58,571 bases of DNA from Chitinophagaceae bacterium (GTDB lineage: Bacteria > Bacteroidota > Bacteroidia > Chitinophagales > Chitinophagaceae): positions 1 to 58,571 of the forward strand of contig JADLHL010000073.1 in the NCBI GenBank assembly GCA_020848815.1, written 5' to 3'. Below are positions 40,628 to 42,804 of the stretch, one piece after another. Positions within the stretch are counted from its first letter, which is position 1, and every line of letters starts with the position of its first letter. The translations under genes and the position numbers were made by a program. The notes below the pieces were generated by a model, which saw nothing but the letters and a program-made list of their open reading frames with translations, did no database searches and was not told where the DNA came from.

Positions 40628-41758
40628 ATGACTGCTCCAGCTGCCACCCGTTTCAAAGCCCTCGATGTATTTCGTGGCCTCACCGTTTGCCTCATGATTA
40701 TTGTAAACACGCCCGGTGATGGCAGTGTTTCTTTTTCGCCTTTGCACCACGCCAAGTGGCACGGATTTACGCCCACCGATTTGGTGCTTCCCAGTTTCCT
40801 GTTTGCCGTGGGCAATGCCATGAGTTTTGTAATGCTCAAGTGGAGCAGCATGTCGCAGTCGCAAGTGTTGCTCAAAATAGCCAAGCGAACGTTCCTTATA
40901 TTTCTGCTGGGCTACCTCATGTATTGGTTTCCGTTTGTGAAGTATCAGGATGGTGCTTATGTTGCTTTTCCTTTTGCTGAAACCCGGGTGTTTGGTGTAT
41001 TGCAGCGCATTGCCCTTTGCTATGGTGCTGCTGCACTCATGGTGTATTACCTCAAACCCAAAACCATGTATTGGCTCAGTGCAGGCATGTTGCTGTTGTA
41101 TTGGGGGTTGTGCTATTGGCTGGCACCAGCCGGTGCCGATGCGCTAAGCCTCGAAGGCAATGCAACGGCAGTGCTCGATAAGTGGCTCATTGGCGAAGCC
41201 CATATGTACCATGGCGATGGTATTGCCTTCGACCCCGAAGGTTTGCTGAGCACACTGCCAGCTATTGTAAATGTGGTGGCCGGTTTTGCTGCCGGACGAT
41301 ACATTCAGCAACAAAGCCGCAGTTATGAAATGCTGGCCAAACTGCTCATGGCTGGTGCTGTGTTGCTGGCCGCAGCCTATGCATGGAATCTTATTTTTCC
41401 CATCAACAAAAAACTGTGGACCAGTTCTTTTGTGCTGCATACCGTTGGCCTCGATTTACTCATTTTATCCGTGGTGATGTATGTGCTCGATTTTGCCGGC
41501 CGCAACCGTTGGGCCTACTTCTTCGAAGTGTTTGGCAAAAATCCGTTGTTCATTTACCTGCTCAGCGAAGTCATTGCCATCCTCTTGTGGTTCTTCCATA
41601 CCGCCGATGGACAGCCCATGTACCAGTGGGTGTACCAAACCTTCTTCGGCTTCATTGGCGGGCCGGTTGGTTCGTTGCTCTTTGCCCTTGCTGTCATGAT
41701 GGTTTGCTGGCTCACCGGCTATGTGATGGACAAACGCAAGTGGTATGTTCGTGTGTAA
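40628..41758 (+). CDS. DUF5009 / heparan-alpha-glucosaminide N-acetyltransferase-like membrane protein
   Basis: RFKALDVFRGLTVCLMIIVNTPGD...HAKWHGFTPTDLVLPSFLFAVG; ~10 TM. Confidence 0.88.
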   Translation: MTAPAATRFKALDVFRGLTVCLMIIVNTPGDGSVSFSPLHHAKWHGFTPTDLVLPSFLFAVGNAMSFVMLKWSSMSQSQVLLKIAKRTFLIFLLGYLMYWFPFVKYQDGAYVAFPFAETRVFGVLQRIALCYGAAALMVYYLKPKTMYWLSAGMLLLYWGLCYWLAPAGADALSLEGNATAVLDKWLIGEAHMYHGDGIAFDPEGLLSTLPAIVNVVAGFAAGRYIQQQSRSYEMLAKLLMAGAVLLAAAYAWNLIFPINKKLWTSSFVLHTVGLDLLILSVVMYVLDFAGRNRWAYFFEVFGKNPLFIYLLSEVIAILLWFFHTADGQPMYQWVYQTFFGFIGGPVGSLLFALAVMMVCWLTGYVMDKRKWYVRV

Positions 41759-41890: not shown

Positions 41891-41988
41891 CCTTCCAGCC
41901 AGCGCAGCCCTTCGGCAGTGGTAACAATAATCAACATCTTGTATTTATGTAGTTTGCAAGCAATCCGTGCATCTGTGGCAAAAAACTG

Positions 41989-42010
41989 TCGCAGGCCTCC
42001 CGGCCTGTGA
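41989..42010 (+). repeat. 22-bp element, arm 1 of inverted pair
   Basis: tcgcaggcctcccggcctgtga; inverse copy at 42444-42465 with 1 mismatch. Confidence 0.75.
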
Positions 42011-42053
42011 CGCTTTGTAACTTAAAGTTGAAATGCAACGGGTCAATTATCAC

Positions 42054-42139
42054 CGCCCTTTCAGGGCTCGGCTTATTGTATACTGTTACTATTCCACGGG
42101 CTACACCCGTGGCTACAATAGTATCGCCCTTTCAGGGCT
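42054..42139 (+). repeat. 86-bp palindromic repeat, copy A
   Basis: cgccctttcagggct ... tactattccacgggctacacccgtggctacaatagta ... cgccctttcagggct. Confidence 0.88.
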
Positions 42140-42239
42140 AGAGCATCTATTCAACAGAGACCCTAAAATCCGCAAAATCCGTTTTATCCTCCCAATCCGC
42201 GTCCAAGAAATCCGTGAATTTGTGGCCATAAAAATATTT

Positions 42240-42325
42240 CGCCCTTTCAGGGCTCGGCTTGTTGTATGCTGTTACTATTCCACGGGCTACACCCGTGGCT
42301 TCAATAGTATCGCCCTTTCAGGGCT
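42240..42325 (+). repeat. 86-bp palindromic repeat, copy B
   Basis: Same as copy A with 3 substitutions over 86 bp. Confidence 0.88.
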
Positions 42326-42443
42326 TAGGCGGCATTTCAAACCTTAACTCAAAAAATCTGTGATAATCATTCCCATCCGCGTCCCGTCATCCGTGTCCAA
42401 TTATCCGCATCCCACTCATCTCACCAACACAAGTAACGGCTAC

Positions 42444-42465
42444 TCACAGGACGGGAGGCCTGCGA
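42444..42465 (-). repeat. 22-bp element, arm 2 of inverted pair
   Basis: tcacaggacgggaggcctgcga. Confidence 0.75.
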
Positions 42466-42556
42466 GAGAATGCACCCAGAAAAATCTGCGATAATCCGTT
42501 CCATCCACAAAATCCGCGTCCCATACATCCGTGAATCCGTGGCCAAGATATCTCGC

Positions 42557-42574
42557 CGCCCTTTCAGGGCTCGG
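42557..42574 (+). repeat. Partial copy of 86-bp repeat (terminal module)
   Basis: cgccctttcagggctcgg. Confidence 0.65.
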
Positions 42575-42804
42575 TAGCATACCAAACCATACCAATAAAT
42601 CCGTGCAAATCCGACCCATCGGCAAAATCCGTGTCCCATTATCCCATCAACCGTGTCCCATTCCATTTCCCCAACGGGGGCTGGTGGCGCTTACCCGCAA
42701 CCCTTATCTTTGCCACCCGCCAAAAAAAGGGTAATGTTCGCCTTGCTGCTACAGCATTGGCATATTTCCAAATTGGCACATTCGCACATTTTCAAATTCT
42801 TCTC

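Follow-up and report, generated by a model that had tools for sequence, protein, structure and literature searches.

Two near-identical 86-bp composite palindromes lie upstream of glyS, the gene for glycine--tRNA ligase, in a 58,571-nt stretch of DNA from a Chitinophagaceae bacterium (contig JADLHL010000073.1; the whole stretch is called the window here), at positions 42054-42139 and 42240-42325. We are fairly confident that they are non-autonomous DNA elements of the repetitive extragenic palindrome (REP)/bacterial interspersed mosaic element (BIME) type, substrates of one clade of Y1 transposases and now orphaned at this site, where, most simply, an old insertion was later doubled. They are termed orphaned because the window's genome holds no member of that clade.

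A dispersed composite of three hairpins

The two copies are 97% identical, with mismatches solely at element positions 22, 29 and 62. The exact module that frames each of them, CGCCCTTTCAGGGCT, occurs five times in the 58.6-kb window (at 42054, 42125, 42240, 42311 and, alone, at 42557), where 0.16 occurrences are expected by chance (shuffling, two mismatches allowed). These coordinates, the three differences and the five exact modules had been reported in a preliminary description made from the sequence alone, and all were verified. Folding of each 86-mer compared with shuffled sequences gave z of about -5.

The assembly that contains the window as its contig 73 (G000) measures 4.08 Mb in 329 contigs and is 98% complete. 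Nucleotide searches, searches with the Rfam family RF01687 and reading of the individual sites revealed about a dozen intergenic sites with one plan in this genome; all copy counts for the element are to be read as 'at least'. The shared plan consists of a REP hairpin, an unconserved spacer of 20-30 nt (~25), a central hairpin, a linker of ~13 nt and a second REP hairpin, and a nearly invariant CT ends each REP at its 3' foot. The stems carry compensatory changes even within this one genome, CCACGGG becoming CCAAGGG or CCATGGG and GCCCT/AGGGC becoming GCCCC/GGGGC. The long hairpin first described between the modules stood in part: its inner CCACGGG/CCCGTGG stem is paired in 98% of cells across the genome's copies, whereas the outer tactatt/aatagta stem is peculiar to the two window copies and, with 50% of cells paired, was rejected as a conserved stem. 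Likewise, the 86-mer is only part of the dispersed block, homology among sites commonly extending over ~155 bp (41985-42139 here) and taking in an upstream CTGTCGCAGGCCTCC..GGCCTGTGAC hairpin; across the genome it often reaches ~70 nt upstream of the composite through a second hairpin, GTCGCAGGCCTCC..GGCCTGTGAC, which gives the ~155-bp block. Because each REP is itself palindromic, pairing of the left with the right REP as one large cruciform is about as compatible with the copies as local hairpins are, and the two are indistinguishable.

A covariance model built from 13 own-genome copies (R1, the E-values of which are rough) matched 9 of the 10 genomes of the genus, with 20 matches in sibling species G005 and 13 in sibling G008. 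Many sites are orthologous between species, while siblings share some sites and lack others. At glyS, G005 has one copy (L075) where the window's genome has two, which suits the recent duplication proposed earlier for this local pair, and C208 is another site at which a block single in G005 has been doubled locally. At another site a ~255-bp element-bearing block in G008 is absent from G005 within otherwise similar intergenic DNA, and G000 lacks still more; the L077 site, where G008 has two partial blocks, is not clean for an empty-site comparison. The genes adjoining copies are unrelated between sites, both in the window's own genome and across the genus. In G000, G005 and G008 the composites mostly share the strand of the gene that comes next, in a small sample with rough calling of open reading frames.

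Linkage to one clade of Y1 transposases

In genome G012, a 95-nt repeat that contains the composite stands in six copies to one side of a Y1 transposase gene, and a single composite lies to its other side. Foetidibacter luteolus YG09 has a protein identical to the product of this gene, the relatives of which make up a distinct clade (identity 57-100%, against 44% for the next best; tree support 100/98). R1 matches were found at 22 of the 22 clade loci from the same family and at all 80 named clade loci across Bacteroidota (E<=0.01), the 150 strongest matches falling in 65 loci; the named loci (L166-L245) are the best 80 of at least 565 relatives and include a few near-duplicates. Among the taxa in their records are Chitinophagaceae, Saprospiraceae, Cytophagales, Flavobacteriales, Bacteroidales, Kapaibacterium and Ignavibacteria. 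A clade gene bracketed by elements also occurs in the window's own genus, in G004.

Placement around the clade genes is precise. The nearest upstream copy typically lies 8-20 nt before the start codon on the strand opposite to the transposase gene, and the nearest downstream copy typically begins 10 nt past the last sense codon (about 6 nt past the stop) on the gene strand, so that the copies bracket the gene in inverted orientation. The linkers next to these genes vary in sequence, and the central stem differs by side, being CGATGGG-like upstream and CATAGGG/CACAGGG-like downstream (p=1.5e-7). These side-specific stems suggest distinct left and right ends, an asymmetry expected of two transposon ends. 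Among same-family genomes, strong element matches were present in 20 of 22 with a clade gene compared with 5 of 31 without one (p=4.5e-8, kinship not corrected). Outgroup Y1 genes are mostly accompanied by simpler doublets without the central hairpin. The mobilised REP- or MITE-like element (MITE, miniature inverted-repeat transposable element) that the preliminary description had named as the first of two alternatives is thereby supported on several sides: dispersed intergenic copies, compensatory changes, presence and absence between siblings, and the close association with one clade of Y1 transposases. The remark in that description that no transposase is present here was right for Y1 transposases on this contig.

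Each of the 18 clade proteins in the alignment is a Y1_Tnp match, and the HuH histidines and the tyrosine are invariant among them. Their motifs are DH[IV]H (a few members have NH instead of DH), WQ and Y---Q--HH, and the solved structures nearest by sequence are ISHp608 TnpA and other IS200-type transposases. The NCBIfam IS200 model matches 18 of the 18, while REP_Tyr_transpos matches 4 of 18, weakly; the clade motif is Y---Q--HH and not the Y---NP of class 2. With DH[IV]H, WQ, Y---Q--HH and a length of ~148 aa, the clade agrees with the description of TnpA-Y1 subclass 1.2 by motif comparison only, made without a subclass hidden Markov model. In Quentin et al. (2018; PMC6006769), the REP column for subclass 1.2 reads 'no'.

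The window's genome has five other Y1 genes (L055-L059, on C134, C31, C227, C44 and C167), three of them with the Y---Q--HH motif. Each is embedded in its own distinct hairpin repeats, for example CCCACGGTTTAAACCGTGGG, TGCTCCGTAGGAGCAA, GCCCCAGCGGGGC and TCGGCTGGAGTCCTCTCCAGCCGA, and these genes were rejected as direct neighbours of the composite, the flanking hairpins being different.

Covariation, Acido-Lenti-1 and alternative explanations

Across 147 distinct transposase-adjacent copies, all 17 base pairs of the element changed on both sides, in 288 cells compared with 75 +/- 6 in shuffled alignments, and slid controls were all far lower both for both-side changes and for paired cells. Single-side changes of the G-U type numbered 22 cells, and G-U made up <1% of paired cells. 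Structured RNA usually evolves via G-U intermediates, and their near absence argues for selection on DNA hairpins over RNA. The genome-wide search for copies and the covariation check that had been proposed at the outset were both run; other copies and covariation were found, and the opposite outcome, named beforehand as refuting, did not occur.

The right half of the element is RF01687 (Acido-Lenti-1), the 46-nt model of which comprises the central hairpin, the linker and the right REP. The window copies give full-length matches of 25.1 bits (42094-42139) and 22.0 bits (42280-42325), below the gathering score of 37, which one copy in the same genome exceeds (38.9); copies beside clade transposases reach 37-53 bits, above threshold at several loci, and RF01687 is almost the sole Rfam family seen around these genes. 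When 198 Bacteroidota genomes were searched with RF01687 first, 21 had matches at E<=1e-6, two of them with 27-28 copies, and a Y1 gene lay within 1.5 kb at 5 of the 29 loci examined (in four genomes). One of the five lies outside the clade. At this locus (L285, in G434) a gene at about 920-1363 encodes a distant Y1 protein that carries the Y---Q--HH motif. The gene lies next to an RF01687 match above threshold, the element there spans 1337-1416, and a CCTCGGGCTTACGCCCGAGG hairpin and a second palindrome come directly after the gene; the arrangement of element and transposase may therefore be broader than the clade. Weinberg et al. (2010; PMC2864571) listed Acido-Lenti-1, from Acidobacteria and Lentisphaerae, only as a probable RNA without a cis-regulatory role, and Rfam labels it as a gene for a small RNA (sRNA). 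A 2026 study invokes it as a possible regulator of Tannerella proteases and states that little is known of the motif (PMC13298647). We found no paper linking Acido-Lenti-1 to a transposase, subscription literature being outside the search.

Following the Rfam label, the element could be a structured RNA, transcribed and acting as an sRNA or a cis-acting leader. The full-length RF01687 matches in both copies, the above-threshold score of the sister copy, the strong folding and covariation, and the frequent position of genus elements on the strand of the following gene are all what such an RNA would give. Nevertheless, 22 single-side against 288 both-side cells is unusual for RNA and expected of DNA hairpins, the copies bracket transposase genes in inverted orientation, and the neighbouring genes differ from site to site, and we assign little probability to this alternative, which the preliminary description had entertained. 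A glyS riboswitch, T-box or other cis-acting leader was rejected as well: in the region upstream of glyS, RF01687 was the one Rfam match, with no T-box or other leader family, and copies elsewhere adjoin unrelated genes. It is less far-fetched, though still unlikely, that the genus elements were moved by resident, more distant Y1 proteins (those of C227, C31 or C134 in G000) and not by a lost clade member. The Y---Q--HH motif is common to the resident proteins, and some of their genes are flanked by simpler REP doublets that R1 also detects, as at C227 and its orthologue in G008. However, these genes carry other hairpins (for example CCCACGGTTTAAACCGTGGG and TGCTCCGTAGGAGCA), none is flanked by the full composite, and related genomes with other Y1 genes but without clade genes mostly lack it.

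Local doubling of blocks at glyS and at C208, each single in G005, is what would be seen if the repeats had multiplied passively, through recombination and tandem duplication without any transposase. This would leave the linkage at 80 of 80 clade loci, the precise inverted placement and the dispersal to unrelated sites unexplained, and we regard it as very improbable. A MITE of an unrelated DD(E/D) transposon would likewise be short, palindromic, dispersed and variably present between species, but the terminal modules here are direct repeats of each other, each self-palindromic, and not inverted repeats; no target duplication was found, and the linkage is to Y1 genes, so that this origin seems scarcely credible. 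Several observations also weigh against an element mobilised by the Y1 clade. The GT[AG]G guide that is canonical for TnpA-REP repeats lacks conservation here: CTAC, which reads GTAG on the opposite strand, follows the central stem in only 5 of the 13 copies from the window's own genome. The site that differs between G008 and G005 could reflect a deletion; no target-site duplication was found or insertion boundary established, and none is clear at that site. The element is present in some genomes without a clade gene, the clade loci have common ancestry, and the alignment used for covariation (A5) was fitted to the structure. Finally, no clade transposase was found in the window's genome or in the near-complete siblings G005 and G008, so that any current mobility here would be hypothetical.

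Organization, proposed history and significance

Composite copy 1 (42054-42139; the composites, their hairpins, the solitary module and the larger block are all on the forward strand) scores 96.2 bits with R1, this copy being within the training set, and consists of the left REP hairpin gccct-ttc-agggc (42054-42068), the spacer, the central hairpin ccacggg-ctaca-cccgtgg (42094-42112), where the RF01687 match begins, the linker and the right REP hairpin (42125-42139). Both REPs are exact modules with covarying helices, that of the left REP covarying across homologues, and the central stem covaries too. Copy 2 (42240-42325) scores 93.9 bits and aligns with the sole copy upstream of glyS in G005; its left REP (42240-42254) and right REP (42311-42325) are again exact modules, and its central hairpin (42280-42298) is identified by the RF01687 match and the own-genome alignment. 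The solitary REP module, also exact, occupies 42557-42571. The ~155-bp block (41985-42139), made up of an upstream GTCGCAGGCC..GGCCTGTGAC hairpin and the composite, is met again elsewhere, G005 and G008 included. We read its upstream hairpin (41986-42010) as a second palindromic repeat family, GTCGCAGGCCTCCCGGCCTGTGAC, which has inverted copies around the 86-mers (41986-42010 on the forward and 42444-42468 on the reverse strand) and is scattered through this genome and those of the siblings, often 40-70 nt to the 5' side of a composite but also on its own. Low-structure repeats of the types AATCCGTGAATTTGTGGC, AATCCGTTTCATCC and AAATCCGCGTCCCAT (42165-42228, 42352-42406, 42482-42545 and 42595-42662) occupy the DNA between the elements and the glyS start; similar ones lie beside most other copies in the genus, and no known family was identified for them. 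The gene 5' of the elements (40628-41758) matches the NagX acetyltransferase family below threshold, and glyS follows on the 3' side from 42805, both genes being on the forward strand.

The element, in which a hairpin of variable sequence separates two directly oriented REP hairpins, would be bound as single-stranded hairpins by the clade transposase, judging from the biochemistry of IS200/IS605 and TnpA-REP proteins. The cut site is perhaps the nearly invariant CT with which each REP ends, as CT is the site in characterized REP systems. Units of hairpin plus REP may be copied or moved in trans as single-stranded DNA, and tandem arrays may grow through unit duplication. Because the clade transposase is absent from the window's genome, the simplest history for the glyS copies would be an old insertion in the genus, common to the sibling, followed by local tandem duplication in the window's species without a present-day enzyme; the copies would now be decaying or passively kept. 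An effect of the elements on glyS transcription is possible.

Like the 'REPtrons' formed by REP/BIME repeats and TnpA-REP (RAYT) proteins, the element comprises small intergenic palindromes in many copies, arranged in dispersed multi-hairpin units, and flanks a usually low-copy Y1 gene, here in relatives including G004 and not in the window's genome (PMC8266576, PMC2817692). It differs from them in its transposase, IS200-like with Y---Q--HH and not class 2 with Y---NP, in the lack of a conserved GTAG guide, and in having a third, covarying hairpin placed between REPs that are direct repeats (PMC8266576, PMC2817692). The clade shares motifs, a length of ~150 aa and occurrence in Bacteroidetes with subclass 1.2, which is listed without REPs, whereas clade members here are consistently bracketed by the composite (PMC6006769). 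IS200/IS605 elements have a related HuH/Tyr transposase, a gene bracketed by hairpins and differing left and right ends; unlike them, the present element has three hairpins and a spacer per end, and its ends are abundant without the gene, which is low-copy. Acido-Lenti-1 (PMC2864571) coincides with the right half of the element and has above-threshold matches beside clade transposases, but is an sRNA gene in Rfam and part of a DNA repeat here, with sub-threshold matches in the window.

We consider the chances about even that Acido-Lenti-1, instead of being an RNA gene, belongs to the DNA recognized by a group of Y1 transposases that was believed to lack such DNA. The ends would then be multi-hairpin and combine a constant REP with a covarying, variable 'address' hairpin, which marks left versus right ends and may set transposase specificity. 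Such a role would give a DNA partner to a subclass of Y1 transposases that has been described as without REPs or insertion sequence ends, and would offer a concrete other identity for a family annotated as 'sRNA' and still cited in 2026 (PMC13298647). It would also provide a case in which the coevolution of a transposase with covarying hairpins can be tested, and an example of elements that outlive their enzyme.
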